A stretch of DNA of 64,000 nt, taken from the IMG/VR virus record IMGVR_UViG_3300010885_064105, positions 1 through 64,000 of that record. One strand, given 5' to 3'. Below the pieces are notes generated by a model. The model searched no databases. It was not told the DNA's origin and worked only from the letters and a program-made list of their open reading frames with translations. The stretch is from a virus. The position numbers and the translations under genes were made by a program. Of this stretch, positions 3,922-30,069 are shown piece after piece. Each line of letters begins with the position of its first letter. The first letter of the stretch is position 1.

Positions 3922-5697
3922 ATGTTGTCTCCACAGGAATTATACTATTCATATAGTAATAATATATGTTTTGATAGTTATATAATAAATGGAACTTCGG
4001 GAATACCAACTAAAACAGCATATGGTACTCCCTATGATTTGCCCAGACTTATCCGTTTTTTGAGACATTTAAAATATCCATGTCTAGAAGGCGCCCCTTT
4101 TGTAGATATTGAACCTTCTGTTAATGCTAGTGGAATCAAAAATACAGGGTCAGGGAAATTAGGATTACCATTCAAATTTTTAAACAGAATGGATGCTGAA
4201 GCTTTTACAGAAATCCAAACTACGGTTGATGGAGGAACAGCTCATGCCATAAGGAACGCTTGCGATATATCGAGAGCTTGCCAAATAGAAAGCACTAAAA
4301 GCTATGGTAGCTGGGAGAGTCGTATGGCTACAGAGTATTTACAACACTTTTGTGGTTCTTCGTTACCAGATTGTTTACTCATGCTTGGTCCAGATTTGGT
4401 TTCGGAAAGTACTGCTCAAAACTTACAGATTCCGGGTTGTTCATATACTGCAACCGACGGGAATACTATCAGTTTTAATTGTATAGATAATCCTCAGTAT
4501 GGAGCTGCTGGAGCATTTTTTTCATGCATAAAAAAACCAGATGAAACCTCAGCAAAATGCAGAAGTTGTGTAGAATGCGATCCATTACTACCTACTTCTC
4601 CTTGTTGTTCAGCTACTACTTGTGTAGATAAATTAGAAATATGTTGTGGTGCCCCTAGAACAAGTAGATTTGATTTTAAATATTTAGTACCAACTGATGA
4701 TTTATATTTTGCCGGAAACATTACTAGTGGATTTAGAGACGAAATATTGAAACATATTGGAATTATTAAAAGAAAAAATTATGGAGCATATGGTAGTTTT
4801 GTTGATTATTCAGGATCAACCTTCTATGGCTGTAGAGATGAGATATTTTTAAATTACTTTAAAGGCATAAATAATTATGATTATGATCAGGATATTCCTA
4901 AATCTCCGTCTGGAGGAATAGATAGATGTCAAACGATTTCTTTAATTGGAGGAGATGGAGATAATAGAGTTAGTAGAGTCAAAGATTTATTATATAATGG
5001 ATATGGTGTTTTACTTATGACAAATGTTGGTTTTCCTAATACTAGGGATTCTACTGGTTTGTCATATCCTGATAGAATATGGTATCATTCATTAGCGATT
5101 ATTGGATATGATGATACAAAAATTGAATTTCCAGAATGTGTTTATTTAGTCGCTAATAGCTGGGGAAATTGGAATAGCGGAGGATCACCAAATTGGGGCC
5201 CTATTCCTCAAGGATCTTTTTTAATTACTGAGAATCATCTAAAAAGCATAACAGTATTTAATCATAGTCCAAGTTTTATTAAGTGTAAAACTAAAAAATG
5301 TATTGATGCAATATATAAGGGTTTGGGCTTGCTTCCTTATAGCGGCTTAAGCTTAGATTCAGGAAAAATATTAGCAGGAGCAGATATTGCTAGTTTAATG
5401 GCTGCAGCTGGTGCAATATCATCAAATTTTCCTAATGTTTTATTAAGTAGTACCTTTGTGGATAATAGCTCCCCTTGCAATGATCCTGCTATTAGTGAAC
5501 AATATAAAGGATGTACAGATGAGGGTAGTTGTGTTCCATTTGAGTGTGGCAAATACCAGAGAGCATTCGGTCTATTATTTGGACTATCTACAGTTAGTGG
5601 TTTTCCCAGACAATACTTAGACTACAAACCATTTTATCCGATTAATACATATAAAAAGTTTAATATGGGCGCTAGGTATTTTAATACAGGAACCTAA
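3922..5697 (+). CDS. inactive papain-type protease paralogue with cysteine-rich insert
   Basis: The protein has 591 residues and is a diverged, enlarged copy of the protease at 1689. Both share SPxELY at the start, the K-N-x-G-x-GKL segment, the RNACDI helix, the H-x-A-x-I-G/A-x-DD histidine site and NSWGxWNxGG. Aligned from the RNACD block, the catalytic cysteine position is glycine here (GGA codon at 4231, residue 104, in VDGGTAHA). The His (YHSLAIIGYDD) and Asn are kept. Residues about 150-265 are an insert rich in cysteine pairs, which may bind metal or form disulphides. A C-terminal extension of about 130 residues is absent from the shorter copy. It is probably a binding or structural protein rather than an enzyme, perhaps in the virion. 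The next gene starts two bases later. Confidence 0.75.
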   Translation: MLSPQELYYSYSNNICFDSYIINGTSGIPTKTAYGTPYDLPRLIRFLRHLKYPCLEGAPFVDIEPSVNASGIKNTGSGKLGLPFKFLNRMDAEAFTEIQTTVDGGTAHAIRNACDISRACQIESTKSYGSWESRMATEYLQHFCGSSLPDCLLMLGPDLVSESTAQNLQIPGCSYTATDGNTISFNCIDNPQYGAAGAFFSCIKKPDETSAKCRSCVECDPLLPTSPCCSATTCVDKLEICCGAPRTSRFDFKYLVPTDDLYFAGNITSGFRDEILKHIGIIKRKNYGAYGSFVDYSGSTFYGCRDEIFLNYFKGINNYDYDQDIPKSPSGGIDRCQTISLIGGDGDNRVSRVKDLLYNGYGVLLMTNVGFPNTRDSTGLSYPDRIWYHSLAIIGYDDTKIEFPECVYLVANSWGNWNSGGSPNWGPIPQGSFLITENHLKSITVFNHSPSFIKCKTKKCIDAIYKGLGLLPYSGLSLDSGKILAGADIASLMAAAGAISSNFPNVLLSSTFVDNSSPCNDPAISEQYKGCTDEGSCVPFECGKYQRAFGLLFGLSTVSGFPRQYLDYKPFYPINTYKKFNMGARYFNTGT

Positions 5698-5699
5698 TT

Positions 5700-8600
5700 A
5701 TGTCTAATGACTGGTGTGATCCTGCCTCTTGGTTTTATGATTCTGGAAACCTTAAGCCCGCTAATAGTATTCCGCAAAATACCAATGATATATATGTTGA
5801 CAATAATCTATCACTAGATCTTGCAACAATAAATTGCATTGATAAAATATCTTATTTAAAATGTGAAAATCTATCGTTATCTACTTCATCAGGAACTGGA
5901 AATTTTATTGTCGGATTTTTAAATGCAAAAAATGTATCCTTAAATAAATGTAACATAACAAATTATATAGATGAAAAAAATCCCTTTAGTTTGTATACTA
6001 TTGATAGTTTAAGTCTTACAGATTCTAAAGTACATAGCATAGCTTTTGATATAGCAGAAAAAATTTCAGGAGTATCTAGCCTTGTAAAAGATTGCTTATT
6101 CTTATCAGATGGTCTTAATTTATATTTTGAAGATAGTATTTTAGAAGGATTGCCTTCTCTAGACTTTCCTTATAGTGATGATTTAAGGAGCAAACTAAAA
6201 TTATCTGCTGGCACATTAATAAAATCTCAAATTCAAGATTTTATCATAGAAAGTGATAGCGAATTGGATATTTATCTATACAGTAATATTCAAAAATGTC
6301 AAATAAAAAGTGATGTTAAATTTAGAAATAGATCATATCATTTAAATCCTTCAATAATAAATGGAAATTGTGAGTTTTGGGATAGTTGTAAAAATTATGG
6401 AACAATCAACGGGAATGTTATTTTTCATGGTGGAGCAGCAATAAATTATGGAACAGTAAAAAAAGCAATTTTTGATAATGGAGGAGATAATTATGGAACT
6501 ATTGAGGAGGCTGAATTTTATGGAAATGGTACTAACTATGGAAATGTAGGCAAAGCTACATTTTATAATGATAGTATTAATTTAGGAAATGTTGGCTATG
6601 CAATATTTAAAGGCTCAGGATGTTACAATGAAGGCAAAGTTTATGAACAAGCTATATTTTTTACTTCCGGAAGCTACAATAATGGAGTAGCATATAATGC
6701 TATTTTTAATTCTGGAACATTCAATGATAAAGGTGGTATAGTATTAGGATCATCATGTTCTTTGGATGGTGCTGAAAATAAAGGAACTATTAATGTTGAG
6801 AATACAATAACCCTAAATAATTCTTATGTTTATGTTGACAGCAGTTCTATTATTTCTAATAGTGGAAATGTTGTTCTTAAAGGTTCTTCAGGAAGCTCAT
6901 ACATTTATGCTTATAAGTCTATATTATTAGATAAAAGTTATATTAGAGGAGAATTATCTTCCCCTGGTTTAGTTACAGTTAAAAATAATAGCCATATAGC
7001 AGCAGTAGTCTGGGATGTTGTTTTTTATGATTCAAGTTTTGCTGATGGTAGTACGATAATAAATATTGGTAATTTTTATAATGATTCTTATTTAATAAGT
7101 AGTAGCTGTAGATCTGGTATTTTTAATGATAATTCTGCAAATTATAGCACAGTAAGACATGGTGTCTTTAACAATAATTCAAAGAATTCCGGAGTAGGGA
7201 TGGTCTTTGATGCATTGTTTTATAATAATTCAAATAACCAAGCATCATGTACTACTGGGTTATTCTATAATAATTCACTCAATGGCCATTTTGGAAATGG
7301 CAACTATTTAACATTTTATGACAATTCAATTAATGCTGGAATCTCTTCAACAAGAATACTTTTTAGTGGAAATTCTTCAAATACAGGAGAAATAAATAAT
7401 GGTGCTATGTTTACAGAAAATAGTATTAATAATGGAAGAGTTAATATTGCACATTTATTAGATAATGCTAAAAATAATGGATATATAGGATCAGGTTATT
7501 TAAATAATAAAACTATTAATAATGGAAGAATTTTTTCAGCTTTTTTACGCAATGAATCAGTTAATGACAAAGGATTTGTGTCGAAAGGTTTTTTTGATGA
7601 TTCATCTAAAAACAACGGGTTTGTTGAAAGTGGGCGCTTTTATGGGTATTCATCGAATGATACAAAAGGCTTTGTTCAGTATGGATTATTTTATAATGAA
7701 AGCATTAATAAAGGAAAAATTATAGATGGAAATTTCTATGACTTATCTACGAACAACTCACTATTTAGTCCATATCATATAACTTTTTATGATCATAGTT
7801 CAAATATAGGTAATATAAATATTAATAACAATTTAAAATTTGATGATAAAACATTTACAGTAGCAATATATAGTGGACAATATCCTGTTTTTGTTGGATC
7901 TAATGAGCAATTCTTATCAGACTTTTTTTGTAATACAGATCATTTTTCTCCATATTGTATTTTCAATTATAAAATAGAATTCAAAGACTATTCTATAAAT
8001 AGAGGCAACTTAAGAGGCTATCGTGATTATATTTTTAATGATAATTCTAAAAACTTTGGACAGTTATTTTCATATAATATAATCCCAAATCATGCTACAA
8101 TTGCTTACTTTTCGGAAAATAGTATTAATTGTGCTAATATACCAAAAGGTAAAATTATTTTTTCAAACGGCGCAATTAATTCTGGAAATATATCATTTGG
8201 TGAATTTTTAAATAGTTCTATAAATTATGGTAATATTAATAGTTATAGTTTGCCTGATACTAATATTTATTCAAATTTTACGCCATGTTATACTATACCA
8301 AATACTAATACTTTATATTTTTACAATGCTTCTATTAATTATGGCCAAATATTATTAAGTAATGGAATGACCCTAAATGGAGAAGATCATAAAATTAAAG
8401 CAGTATTTGATTATGCTATTAATGTTGGAAATATAGCAGGAAGCGCGATATTTAATCATTGTATAAATTCTGGATTTGTGATGAAAAATAGTCAATTTAA
8501 TGATTCCATAAATTATGGAACAATTGGAGGCAACGGATATTTTGTTTCTGGAATTAACTATGGAACTATAAGAGGTTCTGGTAGTTTTCTATCAAATAGT

Positions 8601-9407
8601 ATAAACTATGGAAAAGTAATAAATAATTCATATCTATACAACTCTAAAAATATTTCTGGAATTATTAATGGAATAACATATTTATATGATAATAGTATTA
8701 ATAGTGGAAATTTAACAAATAGCGGATTATTTTATAATAATAGTTTGAACTTTGGAGATATCAAAGGAGGAGCTATGTTTTCTGATGGATCAAAAAATTT
8801 AGCTGGAGTAGTAGGCAAGCAAGCTATTTTTAAAAGCCAATCCTACAATTATGGATTAGTTATTGGATCTGGATATTTCAATAATTCATATAATCAGGGT
8901 TATATACAAGGAGATGCTACTTTTACAAATGCGTCTTATAATGGTATGGATGATGTAAGTTTGAGTAATTATTTAGACATCAACAATCAAGCCTCAATTG
9001 ATTCTATAATGAGTAATGATAATCTTCGTAATGTCGGCAATGGATATGTATCAAAAAATGTAATACTGGAATCTGGTGGTCAAAATTATGGTCTTATCGG
9101 TGGAAATGTATATAATAATATGGGTTATAATTGTGGATATGTATTAGGTACAGGATCTTTGGTTGGTATTGACTACTCAACTGAATGTACTCTAAATGAA
9201 CGGGAATGGGAAGAGACATATTATCCTACACGACCCGTAACTGTATCAAGATATTTTAATATTAATAATGATTATTATTTTTTTGATGACGGTTACTGGC
9301 GATGGGTTTCTCCCAATAAATTTGAAGCAGATCGTCGAGCCACTGTAGATATCAGTTATTTTAATTCAAAATTAGAAAGCCTTCAGTCAGGAATACCGAC
9401 TGCTTGA
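5700..9407 (+). CDS. giant 15-residue-repeat beta-helix-like protein
   Basis: This 1235-residue protein has no recognisable enzyme domain. The N-terminus (W-C-D-P-A-S-W ... IPQNTNDIYVD) resembles the cap that opens many right-handed beta-helix proteins. From about residue 225 to 1145 it consists of degenerate repeats of about 15 residues with the core N-Y/S/x-G-x-I/V and a paired aromatic (F/Y) ten residues later, for example NYGTIEEAEF. The last 75 residues are different (YYFFDDGYWRWV) and look like a separate globular end. Such a solenoid fits a fibre, adhesin or spike. It is plus-strand and follows the protease pair, away from the minus-strand tail genes, so virion incorporation is not certain. 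Confidence 0.75.
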   Translation: MSNDWCDPASWFYDSGNLKPANSIPQNTNDIYVDNNLSLDLATINCIDKISYLKCENLSLSTSSGTGNFIVGFLNAKNVSLNKCNITNYIDEKNPFSLYTIDSLSLTDSKVHSIAFDIAEKISGVSSLVKDCLFLSDGLNLYFEDSILEGLPSLDFPYSDDLRSKLKLSAGTLIKSQIQDFIIESDSELDIYLYSNIQKCQIKSDVKFRNRSYHLNPSIINGNCEFWDSCKNYGTINGNVIFHGGAAINYGTVKKAIFDNGGDNYGTIEEAEFYGNGTNYGNVGKATFYNDSINLGNVGYAIFKGSGCYNEGKVYEQAIFFTSGSYNNGVAYNAIFNSGTFNDKGGIVLGSSCSLDGAENKGTINVENTITLNNSYVYVDSSSIISNSGNVVLKGSSGSSYIYAYKSILLDKSYIRGELSSPGLVTVKNNSHIAAVVWDVVFYDSSFADGSTIINIGNFYNDSYLISSSCRSGIFNDNSANYSTVRHGVFNNNSKNSGVGMVFDALFYNNSNNQASCTTGLFYNNSLNGHFGNGNYLTFYDNSINAGISSTRILFSGNSSNTGEINNGAMFTENSINNGRVNIAHLLDNAKNNGYIGSGYLNNKTINNGRIFSAFLRNESVNDKGFVSKGFFDDSSKNNGFVESGRFYGYSSNDTKGFVQYGLFYNESINKGKIIDGNFYDLSTNNSLFSPYHITFYDHSSNIGNININNNLKFDDKTFTVAIYSGQYPVFVGSNEQFLSDFFCNTDHFSPYCIFNYKIEFKDYSINRGNLRGYRDYIFNDNSKNFGQLFSYNIIPNHATIAYFSENSINCANIPKGKIIFSNGAINSGNISFGEFLNSSINYGNINSYSLPDTNIYSNFTPCYTIPNTNTLYFYNASINYGQILLSNGMTLNGEDHKIKAVFDYAINVGNIAGSAIFNHCINSGFVMKNSQFNDSINYGTIGGNGYFVSGINYGTIRGSGSFLSNSINYGKVINNSYLYNSKNISGIINGITYLYDNSINSGNLTNSGLFYNNSLNFGDIKGGAMFSDGSKNLAGVVGKQAIFKSQSYNYGLVIGSGYFNNSYNQGYIQGDATFTNASYNGMDDVSLSNYLDINNQASIDSIMSNDNLRNVGNGYVSKNVILESGGQNYGLIGGNVYNNMGYNCGYVLGTGSLVGIDYSTECTLNEREWEETYYPTRPVTVSRYFNINNDYYFFDDGYWRWVSPNKFEADRRATVDISYFNSKLESLQSGIPTA
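6370..9140 (+). repeat. coding tandem repeats, about 45 bp period
   Basis: Within the 1235-residue protein, tens of degenerate units of 15 to 20 codons recur, each with an AAT-TAT-GGA-like core (Asn-Tyr-Gly or Asn-x-Gly). The units are far more alike at protein level than in DNA, which indicates old duplications kept by selection on the fold rather than recent slippage. Confidence 0.7.
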
Positions 9408-25658: not shown

Positions 25659-27536
25659 ATGGCAGTCAATTATATACCTCTTCATGTTCATTCTACATAT
25701 TCTTTATTGGATGGATTATCTCAACCGTCTACTATTGCTGAGAGATGTTTAGAGATCGGAGCAACGTCATGTGCTATCACGGATCATGGTAATATAGCAG
25801 GATGTGTTAAGTTTTATACCGAAATGAAAAAACATGGAATAAAGCCTATATTGGGGTGTGAGCTATATATTTGTGATTTAGATCCATCAATACAAAAGCC
25901 GGAAAATAAAAAATTAAGTCATTTGGTAATTTTAGCAAAAAACTATAAAGGTTGGGAAAGTTTAATAAGAATAGTATCAGAATCAAATCGTCCAAATTTT
26001 TATTATCACAAGCCAAGACTAGCATTAAACAATCTAGCTCAATTTTGCAATAATAATATTATAGCCTTTTGTGGACATCTTGGATCAACATTAGCAGATA
26101 AAATAACTGATAACTATAACCTCAAACCAAATTGGATAGATATAGGAACACAAGAAATATCTCTTTACAAAGATATTTTTGGATCAGATAATTTCTTCTT
26201 GGAAGCGCAACTTATGGATAAAGAGAATACTCCTATGCAAGAGGTTTTAACTGAAGCAATCAGAAAATTATCCAAAATTACCAATACTAAGATTATATGC
26301 ACACCGGATGCTCATTACTCCCGTAAAGAAGATGCAATAGATCAAAGAATATTATTATGTAATAATTTAAAAATGACATTTCCTGATATTAGCAGAAAAA
26401 TAGCTAATGACGATGATGTGGCGTTAGGATGCTTTTTTACATCTGAAAATTTTCATATATTATCACAAGAAGAAATAGCACAATTACACACAGAAGAAGA
26501 AATAGTTAATACTAACTTAGTAGCAGATATGTGCGAAGAATATAATATCCTACATAAGCCAAGACTACCTCCTTTTCCATGTCCCAAAGGAATGGATGAT
26601 GTTGAATATCTGAGAGAATTATGTCGCAAAGGTTGGAAAGCTAAAATTGCTAATATTATTCCGAAGGAAGAGCAACAAATTTATGTAGACAGAGTGAAAT
26701 ATGAACTAGATATATTACAGGGAGCAGGATTATCTAGTTATTTTTTAATAGTACAAGACATTGTAAACTATGTAAGGAAAAATGGCTGGCTGCCTGGACC
26801 CGGAAGAGGATCTGCTTCTGGTTGTTTAGTGTCATACTTGATAGGTATTACCAGTATTGATCCAATAAAATATGGTTTGTTATTTGAAAGATTCTATAAT
26901 AGCGGAAGAAATTCTAAAGACCATATATCCATGCCAGATATTGATGTTGACGTTCCTATAGACAAAAGAGAAAACATTATAGAATATATTAAACAAACCT
27001 ATGGTCATGACAAAGTATCTCAAATGATTACATTTAATACTATGAAAGGCAGAGGTGCTCTAAAAGATGTACTTAGAGTTTATGGAAATATTAGTTTTGA
27101 TGAAATGAACAAAATAACCAAAAATATACCAGATGAATCTAAAATTGCTGACGATCTTCAGGAAATGAAGGACGAAACAGGAGAGGCCTCAATAATACGG
27201 TGGGCATTAGAAAATCAGCCAGAAAAACTCAAAGAGTGGTGCTATATAGATGAAAACAATGAACTACAAGGCCCACTTGCAAAAAGGTTTGAGCAGGCTA
27301 TAAGATTAGAAGGCACTAAATCCAATCAATCCAAACACGCGGCAGGAATTGCAATAAGTTCAGAACCTTTGAACACTATTTGTCCGATGGTTTATGACAG
27401 CAAAAATGATCAAATGATAGCAGGTATGGAAATGCAAGATTTGGAAGCTCTTGGCGTTATCAAGTTTGATATTCTAGGTATTGCTATGTTGGATAAAATT
27501 ATGACTATTCAAGACATTTTAAAAAATGGAGAATAA
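25659..27536 (+). CDS. dnaE: DNA polymerase III alpha, N-terminal part (PHP, palm, thumb)
   Basis: The protein has 625 residues. It opens with a PHP domain (HVHS at residues 9-12, TDHGN, DAHYS). The PHP metal residues look intact, unlike in E. coli. The polymerase part follows: GPGRGSASG, then MPDIDVDV with Asp429 and Asp431, and the third catalytic Asp604 in IKFDILG. These match E. coli Asp401, Asp403 and Asp555. The protein ends about 20 residues after that third aspartate, near where the fingers domain would begin. The missing part is encoded separately at 28438. It should be non-functional as a polymerase alone and work as one subunit of a two-piece enzyme. Confidence 0.9.
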   Translation: MAVNYIPLHVHSTYSLLDGLSQPSTIAERCLEIGATSCAITDHGNIAGCVKFYTEMKKHGIKPILGCELYICDLDPSIQKPENKKLSHLVILAKNYKGWESLIRIVSESNRPNFYYHKPRLALNNLAQFCNNNIIAFCGHLGSTLADKITDNYNLKPNWIDIGTQEISLYKDIFGSDNFFLEAQLMDKENTPMQEVLTEAIRKLSKITNTKIICTPDAHYSRKEDAIDQRILLCNNLKMTFPDISRKIANDDDVALGCFFTSENFHILSQEEIAQLHTEEEIVNTNLVADMCEEYNILHKPRLPPFPCPKGMDDVEYLRELCRKGWKAKIANIIPKEEQQIYVDRVKYELDILQGAGLSSYFLIVQDIVNYVRKNGWLPGPGRGSASGCLVSYLIGITSIDPIKYGLLFERFYNSGRNSKDHISMPDIDVDVPIDKRENIIEYIKQTYGHDKVSQMITFNTMKGRGALKDVLRVYGNISFDEMNKITKNIPDESKIADDLQEMKDETGEASIIRWALENQPEKLKEWCYIDENNELQGPLAKRFEQAIRLEGTKSNQSKHAAGIAISSEPLNTICPMVYDSKNDQMIAGMEMQDLEALGVIKFDILGIAMLDKIMTIQDILKNGE

Positions 27537-27540
27537 TATT

Positions 27541-27729
27541 ATGGTAAAATTTATGGATCTTACAGTTGGTCAAAAGTTTAAGGTTTCGATTAATGGTGGT
27601 CCCGTCAGTGAATATATAAAAATACCCGAAGAAAGAAAGAGCTGTTGTCATGTATTGACCGCAGCGTTACTCTCTGATCCTGCCCAAAAGGTTCAGGTCA
27701 CGCCTCTAGTAGAAGTAGAATTAATTTAA
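27541..27729 (+). CDS. small hypothetical protein between polymerase halves
   Basis: The product has 62 residues, starting at the ATG at 27541 that follows GGAG (27529-27532, at the end of the polymerase N-terminal gene). The sequence suggests a small beta-rich domain (VGQKFKVSINGG) with a CC pair in the middle. I do not recognise it. Lying between the polymerase pieces, it is a candidate small factor of the replication complex, with no direct evidence. Confidence 0.6.
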   Translation: MVKFMDLTVGQKFKVSINGGPVSEYIKIPEERKSCCHVLTAALLSDPAQKVQVTPLVEVELI

Positions 27730-27752
27730 GATACCCTATAATATAAAAACTA

Positions 27753-28445
27753 ATGATTAACTATAATAAAATTTGTGTTTTTGATTTTGAAACAGATGGT
27801 TCCGATCCTAGGATCTGTAGTCCTGTACAAATAGCAGCTCTAATAATAGATCCTATAAAATTAGAGATTGTTCCCAAATCAGAGTTTAATGTTTTCTTTA
27901 AGCCCGAAACCTTAGCTAAAGATGAAAATTATGTATATACTACAGACATATTAGATTTTCATGCTAAGGTCAGGAGTTGTTCAAAAGAAGATATTTTATC
28001 TCAATGGAAAGAATATCCTCCGCAGGAACAGTCTTGGAAAATGTTTACAAATTATTTAGAAATGCATCATAGTAGGTCATCTAAAAAAAGTCAATTTAGT
28101 GCTCCAATAGCAGCTGGATACAACATTAATAGATTTGATCTGAATATTATAGACAGACTCAGTATAAAATATGGATTTACAAATAAAGAAGGTAGATCTG
28201 ATATATTTTATCCACGAGATGTTATAGATCTGATGAATCTGGTATTTTATTGGTTTGAAAGTAATAGCGATCTTAAGAGCTATACTTTAGATTCCTTAAG
28301 AGACTATTTTGGAATATCTAAGGTTGGGGCACATGATGCTTTTAAGGACGTGCAAGACTGTGCTGAAATTCTGATCAGATTTTTGAGACTGCATCGTAAT
28401 TTGAGTAACAAAATTAAGTTCAAAGATTCTTTTACAAATGTCTAA
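27753..28445 (+). CDS. DnaQ-like 3'-5' proofreading exonuclease
   Basis: This 230-residue protein belongs to the DEDDh family: Asp11 and Glu13 in FDFETDG, Asp129 in NINRFD, His194 and Asp199 in HDAFKD. It matches the epsilon proofreading subunit of bacterial replicases, which removes mispaired 3' ends in complex with Pol III alpha. Its position between the two halves of alpha and its eight-base overlap with the second half strongly suggest it works with that polymerase. Confidence 0.9.
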   Translation: MINYNKICVFDFETDGSDPRICSPVQIAALIIDPIKLEIVPKSEFNVFFKPETLAKDENYVYTTDILDFHAKVRSCSKEDILSQWKEYPPQEQSWKMFTNYLEMHHSRSSKKSQFSAPIAAGYNINRFDLNIIDRLSIKYGFTNKEGRSDIFYPRDVIDLMNLVFYWFESNSDLKSYTLDSLRDYFGISKVGAHDAFKDVQDCAEILIRFLRLHRNLSNKIKFKDSFTNV

Positions 28446-30069
28446 AAAATTCCAATATTCTTGTGGATGTGCTTTCGATATTGTCGGCGGAGACAATACA
28501 ATAGATAATACTTTGATAAATTTTGATCCAAAAATTGAACATCTCCCCTTAGACTGTACAAAAACCTGGGAATTAATATCTTCTGGTAACACTAAGGGTT
28601 GTTTCCAGTTAGAGTCCAGGCTTGGTAAATCTATGGCTAAAAAACTTAAACCAGAAAATATCGAACAACTATCTGGGTTAATTAGCATCCTAAGACCGGG
28701 ATGTTTGGAGGCCTATAGGGAAGGAAAAAATGTAAGTAACCACTACATTGACAAAAAGAATGCTCAAGAAAGTATTGATTATTATCATCCATCATTAGAG
28801 CCGATACTTCATACTACTTATGGAGAAATGATCTATCAAGAACAAGCTATGGAAATAGCAAAAGTTATTGCTGGTTTCGATCTTCAAGAAGCAGATATGT
28901 TAAGAAAAGCTATTGGAAAGAAAAAACCAGAAGAGATGGCTAAAATCAAACTTAAATTTCTAAATGGCTGTAAGGAAATTAATACGGTATCAATTGAACA
29001 AGCAGAAGAAATTTTTGGTTGGGTCGAAAAAAGCCAAAGATACTCCTTTAATAAAAGTCATGCTGTTTCATACGCCGTCAACGCTTATCTCTCAGCGTAT
29101 GCCAAGGCACATTTCCCCAAAGTATTTTTTGCATCATATCTAAGATTTGCTAAAGATAAAATAGATCCTAAAGCTGAAATTAAAGAGTTAGTGCAAAATG
29201 CTAATGAAATGGATATTAATGTATGTATACCAGACATTAGACATCTAAATAGACACTTTGTGTTAAGGAATCAAAAGATTTATTTTGGATTAACAGACAT
29301 CAAAGGATTTGGACAATCAATTTTTGATAAACTGAATAAACTCTTGAAGGATCGTAATCTTTACATAGATAATATGAGCTGGTTAGAGTTTTTGTTTAAT
29401 ATTCTTATAAATATTAATTCTAATGCTAGCAAAGCTCTGATACAATCTGGATCGCTATCTTTTTTGGGCAAAAGCAGAACTGCTATGCTGTTTGATTTTG
29501 GCATAGTATTAGAATTGACAAAAAGAGAATGTGATCATATAATAGCCAATTTTAGTAAATACAAAACACTGTCTGATAGTATGCACGACCTTTATCATAA
29601 TGCCAAAATAAATAAAAATAGAAAAACTATTATACTAAGTCTTATAAACTCTATTAATAAGCCACCATATTCATTAGAAGACAATCCAGAATGGATAGCA
29701 GATACTGAGGACGAGATATTGGGATGTAATATTACATGTTCTAAAGTTGATATGTATGATATCACTATGACCAACACGACATGTAAAGATTTTAAAAATA
29801 GTATTCTAAAAGACAATATTATTTTATGTTCAGAAATAGAGAATATTGGAATAACAAAAACTAAAAAAGGTAAAAATCCAGGATTAGAAATGGCTTTTGT
29901 TACAGTTAGTGACGGAACCGGACTGCTAGACTCAGTTATATTTTTTCCTGAAGCATATAAAACTTACAGAAATTTATTATTCAGTGGTAATGTTATTATT
30001 ATAAAAGGGTCTAGGGCAAAGGGCGGAGATTCACTAATTGTAGAAAAAGTTTATCTGCCTAGTACTTGA
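28438..30069 (+). CDS. dnaE: DNA polymerase III alpha, C-terminal part (fingers, clamp-binding, OB fold)
   Basis: This 543-residue protein continues the alpha subunit where the gene at 25659 stops. After a 30-residue lead with a CGC motif come GCFQLES, LISILRPG, TYGEMIYQEQ, ADMLRKAIGKKKPEEMAK and SFNKSHAVSYAV, all fingers-domain landmarks. The end (about residues 455-543) is an OB-like domain (VTVSDGTGLLDSVIFF). The two halves total 1168 residues, close to the 1160 of E. coli alpha. The start is a normal ATG coupled to the exonuclease stop. The end of the gene overlaps the ssb promoter. Confidence 0.9.
   Translation: MSKKFQYSCGCAFDIVGGDNTIDNTLINFDPKIEHLPLDCTKTWELISSGNTKGCFQLESRLGKSMAKKLKPENIEQLSGLISILRPGCLEAYREGKNVSNHYIDKKNAQESIDYYHPSLEPILHTTYGEMIYQEQAMEIAKVIAGFDLQEADMLRKAIGKKKPEEMAKIKLKFLNGCKEINTVSIEQAEEIFGWVEKSQRYSFNKSHAVSYAVNAYLSAYAKAHFPKVFFASYLRFAKDKIDPKAEIKELVQNANEMDINVCIPDIRHLNRHFVLRNQKIYFGLTDIKGFGQSIFDKLNKLLKDRNLYIDNMSWLEFLFNILININSNASKALIQSGSLSFLGKSRTAMLFDFGIVLELTKRECDHIIANFSKYKTLSDSMHDLYHNAKINKNRKTIILSLINSINKPPYSLEDNPEWIADTEDEILGCNITCSKVDMYDITMTNTTCKDFKNSILKDNIILCSEIENIGITKTKKGKNPGLEMAFVTVSDGTGLLDSVIFFPEAYKTYRNLLFSGNVIIIKGSRAKGGDSLIVEKVYLPST

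Follow-up and report, generated by a model that had tools for sequence, protein, structure and literature searches.

A DnaE-type polymerase gene broken between palm and fingers in a clade of large phages, with an exonuclease gene in the gap

The main replicative DNA polymerase is usually a single catalytic chain. In cyanobacteria, the alpha subunit of DNA polymerase III (Pol III alpha, DnaE) is made from two genes, with the break before the motif CFNKSHS, and is rejoined by protein splicing. For phages, published work describes a minimal split Pol III alpha in the group 2.2 jumbo phages, with the catalytic module in two standalone proteins that are predicted to reconstitute the enzyme (PMC7824862); a split family B polymerase (PolB) in T4-like Aeromonas phages, whose chains, 43A and 43B, co-purify with polymerase activity, and a split but functional NrdA in phage Aeh1 (PMC2988022); a split PolB with an intein (PMC6892783); and, in OM43 phages, a split polymerase with a small open reading frame (ORF) between the parts (PMC10580990). 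Here we analyze a different arrangement, found in bases 1-64000 of the 122 kb IMG/VR virus record IMGVR_UViG_3300010885_064105 (this whole stretch is hereafter the window), where four consecutive genes on the plus strand, at 25659-30069, encode the N-terminal half of Pol III alpha (H1), a small protein (SM), a DEDDh exonuclease (EXO), and the C-terminal half of alpha (H2). We consider it probable, at about 0.82, that these genes form an operon for a DnaE-type replicase, whose alpha consists of two non-covalently associated polypeptides, and for a probable proofreader.

Split phage polymerases being already known, annotated splits of DnaE in isolates included, the closest of these, at this very boundary, is that of Rossellomorea phage phiT1 (PV767480; gp20/gp19/gp18), where, as in the window, DnaE is broken in the same loop, with a small gene (49 aa) in the gap, and both halves are annotated as DNA polymerase III alpha. 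However, phiT1 is only ~34% identical to the window in H1, has no exonuclease in the gap, encodes a different small protein, and lacks the CGC extension with which H2 begins. In trees of the joined sequences, phiT1 does not group with the clade of the window, yet such grouping is not rejected (approximately unbiased test, p = 0.204), and the base is unresolved; because the trees leave this question undecided, the loop may have been broken on two independent occasions. Relatives of the N-terminal half of phiT1 were not detected in viral contigs with search patterns that are themselves poorly conserved. The actinobacteriophages ChewyVIII, Rie18, FreddieHg, Papyrus, and Wollypog likewise carry DnaE in two genes, which in some enclose small or endonuclease genes, but the first gene is only ~310-345 aa long, the break lies near the end of PHP, and, by annotation, no DEDDh exonuclease occupies the gap. 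Altogether, we inspected 22 polymerase regions in a phage collection, chosen from the top matches or for having two listed features rather than at random: one (phiT1) is broken at the same loop, 6 are broken elsewhere by annotation (for example, PhiSepi-HH3, after ~482 residues), that of phage Jayan is interrupted, and 14 read through. Two polymerase-named features were present in 6 of 60 phage records sampled evenly from 1368 with DnaE-like matches.

The other described systems differ more deeply. The jumbo phage enzyme consists of the core only, lacking PHP and the other Pol III domains, with genes far apart and PolB alongside (PMC7824862), whereas in the window PHP, HhH, and OB-like parts are present, the genes are adjacent in one operon, and PolB was found in 0 of 14 large records. 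The split PolB and NrdA resemble the window in that fission struck an essential phage enzyme and the chains cooperate without splicing, but they belong to other enzyme families and are tied to homing endonucleases or an untranslated insert; because the split PolB chains co-purify with activity and split NrdA works, the assembly of H1 with H2 is credible (PMC2988022). A description of the four-gene arrangement was not found in the open-access literature searched. What is notable here is the full architecture, the fixed SM-EXO cassette, and conservation across a clade.

Two genes and one Pol III alpha

H1 (25659-27536; 625 aa), with the PHP, palm, and thumb, matches Pfam PHP and DNA_pol3_alpha (9e-74) over cut-off, and H2 (28438-30069; 543 aa), with the fingers, HhH, and OB parts, matches DNA_pol3_finger (2e-46) and HHH_6 over cut-off and the OB domain below it. 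On the PHROGs family phrog_405 (1190 positions), H1 covers 42-615 and H2 covers 622-1059, that is, consecutive stretches; in profile searches, the match of H1 to Taq alpha ends at residue 626, and that of H2 to E. coli alpha begins at 585. The AlphaFold2 models (H1, pLDDT 85.7, pTM 0.85, 69 sequences; H2, pLDDT 84.1, pTM 0.69, 85 sequences) are consistent with this division: residues 1-625 of the H1 model align with residues 2-576 of E. coli alpha (2hnh; Z 38.1, rmsd 3.5, 564 aligned), and residues 22-542 of the H2 model with residues 577-1074 of 5fku chain A (Z 15.2, rmsd 9.6, 459 aligned). As modeled, the two proteins would tile E. coli alpha about end to end, without a gap, with the domain arrangement of H2 uncertain because the rmsd of its alignment is large. 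The features that characterize C-family DNA polymerases (DnaE / Pol III alpha), namely, PHP, a core with three aspartates, fingers, and HhH, are all present, over two chains.

The original prediction, made from the window sequence, placed the three catalytic aspartates in the first gene, the third of them about 20 residues before its end, and the first fingers landmarks in the second. Indeed, D429 and D431 (PDIDVD; codons 26943-26951), which we take to be the equivalent of the E. coli alpha catalytic pair, and D604 (KFDILG; codon 27468-27470) all lie within H1, which ends 21 residues past D604, and the DNA_pol3_finger match lies in H2; the three aspartates are invariant in 69 sequences, as are the fingers motifs of H2 in a large alignment. 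H1 ends with the helix that follows the D604 strand, whereas H2 begins with an extra element and then enters the fingers; when 16 other polymerases from phages and bacteria are aligned, this point falls in a loop of variable length. At the other end of H1, the nine positions that we take to be the metal-binding ones of the Taq alpha PHP domain correspond, by profile alignment, to H9, H11, D18, H43, E68, H88, H140 (Cys in Taq), D217, and H219, with seven positions unchanged throughout the 69 sequences and only H9 and H11 varying slightly, so that the PHP metal site looks intact, besides the separate EXO.

The coordinates and ORFs originally predicted for the four genes were re-derived from the sequence unchanged, including the 62-residue protein (SM, 27541-27729) and the DEDDh exonuclease (EXO, 27753-28445; 230 aa) between the halves. 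The expectation that the two halves add up to an intact alpha was borne out approximately: they total 1168 aa against 1160 aa in E. coli, but the match is inexact, given that H2 has ~20-28 extra residues at its N-terminus and ends after the OB domain, at about E. coli residue 1074, and therefore lacks the C-terminal tau-binding region, which we assume to be the part beyond that residue. Likewise, the proposal that each piece has its own start and coupling fits the EXO/H2 junction, where the stop and the start overlap by 8 nt (28438-28445; translational coupling), but not the SM/EXO junction, which is a gap of 23 nt. The EXO/H2 overlap is the only one in the cluster unless SM starts at an alternative in-frame ATG at 27526, which would lengthen it to 67 aa and make it overlap H1.

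The codon comparisons indicate that the two halves are in use rather than decaying. Among 21 pairs for which Nei-Gojobori dN/dS was computed, 5 had saturated dS and several more were near saturation; in the unsaturated pairs, the ratio was 0.024-0.071 for H1, 0.012-0.062 for H2, 0.017-0.032 for EXO, and 0.020-0.22 for SM, and by this measure H1 and H2 are under strong purifying selection. Each of the 14 records of 122-244 kb, none of them rated complete, encodes a single H1 domain and a single H2 domain, and neither a family A or B polymerase (PolA, PolB) nor a phage beta clamp was found in any of these. The missing clamp implies that host factors are needed anyway and could be taken to mean that the host replicase copies the phage genome while one or both halves act outside replication, for example, as a DNA-binding or PHP protein. 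We consider this very unlikely: large alignments show no variation in the three catalytic aspartates or the fingers motifs, dN/dS is low in both halves, both are single-copy in 14/14 records, and genes for helicase, primase-like, and single-stranded DNA-binding (SSB) proteins adjoin H1 and H2. The Pfam matches of these neighbors are to a DnaB-like helicase, a Toprim primase-like protein, and an SSB, accompanied by a dNMP kinase and a PD-(D/E)XK nuclease.

Conservation of the break

Three scans of viral contigs found 245, 453, and 476 relatives, of which the best 80 of each were kept, and a scan of genome contigs found 3 loci, two of them in the split clade (contigs L091 and L092, from metagenome-assembled genomes, MAGs). 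The clade comprises 242 loci, 16 of them cut by a contig end and 226 with both halves, which reduce to 142 distinct junction sequences. The original prediction left it to a search of phage genomes whether the split is conserved, and named homologues with only a fused gene as a result that would speak against it. In 142 of the 142 distinct junctions, H1 stops before H2 starts and EXO is present, and no close homologue with a fused gene only was found (0/142). The same identical break in all these junctions rules out an assembly error or frameshift. Members of the clade are 57-100% identical to the window H2, whereas the next relatives, which are fused or split elsewhere, show ~36% identity or less; among the kept loci (best 80 of 245, of 453, and of 476), none is a fused relative at 40-58% identity and all belong to the split clade; a fused sister group may yet exist among the remainder.

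The fine structure of the junction was counted for those loci of the earlier scans in which H1, EXO, and H2 are all present (155 loci). SM is found in 155/155. The tail of H1 past D604 is 20-30 residues long, exactly 21 in 101 loci. With H2 start codons set by a nearest-ATG rule, EXO and H2 overlap by 1-16 nt in 107 of the 155 loci, by exactly 8 nt in 68, and H2 starts 1-11 nt past the EXO stop in 43.

The relatives also provide hints at hosts, which are conflicting. Two clade contigs are binned with Flavobacteriales and Chitinophagia MAGs. In contrast, the cargo between EXO and H2 in L041 (2355-5847) consists of a DUF1559 prepilin-like gene with an N-methylation motif, ThyX, a methyltransferase-like ORF, and a tRNA, and DUF1559 pilins are typical of Planctomycetota.

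Splicing elements in the same genes

The halves could be joined after all, either at the RNA level, through a group I or group II intron or trans-splicing, or by protein splicing, and such elements do visit these genes, given that H1 and H2 of relatives carry split and contiguous inteins as well as endonuclease inserts at other places. In L026 (2050-5126) and L045 (2077-5137), H1 is broken again at GPGRG/S by a split intein (TIGR01445, 35.5 and 30.2 bits against a cut-off of 24.5), with an endonuclease-like ORF between the intein parts (weak matches), so that dnaE is in three pieces; L047 has the same coordinates as L045 and was not itself in the intein scan. By eye, H2 of L133 (8678-11691) is broken at FNK/SH, near the site of the cyanobacterial DnaE intein, where intein-like N and C parts flank a LAGLIDADG-like ORF, and H2 of L233 (7726-10092) and L265 (7708-10107) contains at RPG/C an intein-like insert that is contiguous and in frame and has an HNH-like core; L261 bears an insert at the same place. 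In L074 (3353-4282), a LAGLIDADG ORF is inserted near the catalytic PDIDV of H1, and no intron was found there by Rfam. As a separate observation, in L074 and L079 the upstream PD-(D/E)XK nuclease gene is interrupted too, by about 0.9 kb.

Judging from their sequences, these insertions are sporadic and at differing sites, and the gap between H1 and H2 is unlike them. Neither half of the window has a Hint or intein match in Pfam, and there is no intein-like sequence at the end of H1 or the start of H2, which rules out a hidden intein at the break. The intein halves that mark the cyanobacterial type of split DnaE are missing from the break ends, and the site of that intein, as had been noted from the outset, is whole in the window H2 (SFNKSHA). 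Rfam yielded nothing at the gathering threshold in the window; with E allowed up to 5, the gap had no intron and only chance-level miRNA matches, although this is a weak test, considering that the control insertion in L074 gave no match either. Further, SM and EXO are separate, conserved genes with low dN/dS, the break sits in a variable loop, whereas the observed inteins occupy conserved motifs, and the start of H2 lies on or beside the stop of EXO in 150 of 155 loci. Taken together, these observations make splicing very unlikely, with a chance of a few in a hundred. An intein origin of the break is also disfavored, because of its position in the variable loop. Nor is this a gene in pieces around a homing endonuclease, of the Aeh1 mobE type, inasmuch as SM and EXO in the window are not homing endonucleases; only L021 and L022 have an endonuclease-like ORF between the halves, recognized by eye, without Pfam support.

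The survey of isolates gave a further case of interruption. Bacillus phages Jayan (L085:3992-7399) and PS1 (L181:2992-6078) have DnaE proteins that are nearly identical by tree branch lengths, but the gene is fused in PS1, whereas in Jayan about 270 nt interrupt it near PDID and two polymerase genes are annotated; the interruption may be a recent intron. In the same comparison, MT836213, MT836517, and MT837297 (L083, L088, L089), deposited as 'Bacteriophage sp.', carry DnaE among bacterial-looking housekeeping genes (by eye, phosphofructokinase-like and tryptophanyl-tRNA synthetase-like ORFs) and are probably bacterial contigs.

Gap genes, possible docking parts, and the origin of the proposed two-chain polymerase

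EXO matches Pfam RNase_T over cut-off, and its DEDDh residues, D11, E13, D129, H194, and D199, are kept in 12/12 aligned copies, which identifies it, by catalytic residues, as a DEDDh exonuclease of the DnaQ-like superfamily. The match to phrog_192 ('DNA polymerase exonuclease subunit') is a mere lead toward an epsilon-type proofreader bound to alpha. SM contains the motif (S/T/N)CC, with an invariant Cys-Cys, in 155/155 loci; of 31 members of the SM family, 7 weakly match phrog_2183, and SM has no match to a known function and none in Pfam, PDB, or isolated phages.

It is possible that the polymerase consists of two chains but SM and EXO lie in the gap through an accident of the breakage and do not bind it. 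In other phages whose DnaE is split (phiT1, with its 49 aa protein, ChewyVIII, Papyrus), the gap contains small genes unrelated to these, some relatives of the window have extra genes there, and SM is without a match of known function. On the other hand, SM is never missing from 155 loci, nor EXO from 142 distinct junctions, while other inserts come and go, and EXO is, by its family, a plausible proofreader. On balance, we regard such passenger status as unlikely, although with an appreciable chance of being correct, and the constancy of the two genes amid changing inserts favors a subunit role for EXO. From the conserved order and the gene overlap, it appears likely that EXO, and conceivable that SM, physically assembles with the polymerase halves.

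The proposal of a two-chain replicase made with a proofreader faces several contrary observations. The pTM of the H2 model is modest, 0.69. EXO does not closely resemble E. coli epsilon; by profile, the nearest proteins of solved structure are exonuclease I and exonucleases of the PolC type. Between EXO and H2, 5 of 155 loci have 1.0-3.6 kb of other genes, and L021 and L022 carry an extra ORF ahead of SM, so that strict adjacency of the four genes is not required. Finally, with none of the 14 large records rated complete, a second polymerase could have been missed. We nevertheless favor the two-chain replicase: the part of the original prediction that concerns two halves is supported by the universal split, selection, the detection of no other polymerase, and the lack of an intein or a known intron, and the predicted participation of EXO and SM would be its less secure component.

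The ends at the break might be more than remnants. The terminal helix of H1 (residues 609-622; 27483-27524), delineated by AlphaFold2 secondary structure and conservation, is clade-specific, with A609, L611, D612, K613, and M615 kept in 69/69 sequences. The N-terminal extension of H2 (residues 1-28; 28438-28521), with the motif CGCxF, is absent from the 16 other polymerases aligned, and its CGC is found in 148 of 149 loci and 103 of 104 distinct N-termini. If the break were no more than tolerated, its ends should be loose, and the conservation of both elements therefore hints at docking parts. Conversely, the extension is variable outside CGCxF, and one locus of the 149 (L077, 5986-7545) manages without it. 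One could go further and envisage that this widespread, uncultured clade of large phages has a replicase class of its own, in which alpha-N, alpha-C, the exonuclease, and SM form an obligate heteromer and the break has its own docking parts (the H1 helix, the CGC extension, and possibly a metal site to which the SM Cys-Cys also contributes). This we consider doubtful, but, if true, two-chain assembly would be an evolved feature rather than a tolerated accident, serving, for example, to link the completion of the active site with exonuclease supply.

In the scenario that we favor for the two-chain replicase, a single old gene fission in the ancestor of the clade opened the gap at a loop that tolerates length change. 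The present gene order could have come from a tandem duplication of polymerase, SM, and EXO followed by complementary loss, or from insertion of SM-EXO into the gene, both being conjectures. H1 would supply the PHP, the thumb, and the whole palm active site, and H2 the fingers and the template-binding HhH and OB parts; alpha-N, SM, EXO, and alpha-C, translated successively from one cluster, would assemble as one proofreading replicase, with the polymerase formed by the association of palm and fingers.

Away from the replication genes, the window contains two ORFs, at 1689-2615 and 3922-5697, that by eye look like papain-like cysteine peptidases, with repeated NSWG motifs, and are adjoined by a 1235-aa repetitive ORF at 5700-9407.

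Taken together, these findings indicate that, in aquatic phages of a widespread group, whose genomes are in many cases ~200 kb, the polymerase has a fixed break between the palm, with its active site, and the fingers that grip the template, and no splicing element was detected that would mend it. An evolutionarily fixed fission can be told apart here from the sporadic intein and nuclease insertions in the same genes. The C-family polymerase of these phages should be rebuildable in vitro from two inactive halves, which would offer a handle on the communication between palm and fingers and, possibly, a base for switchable polymerases.

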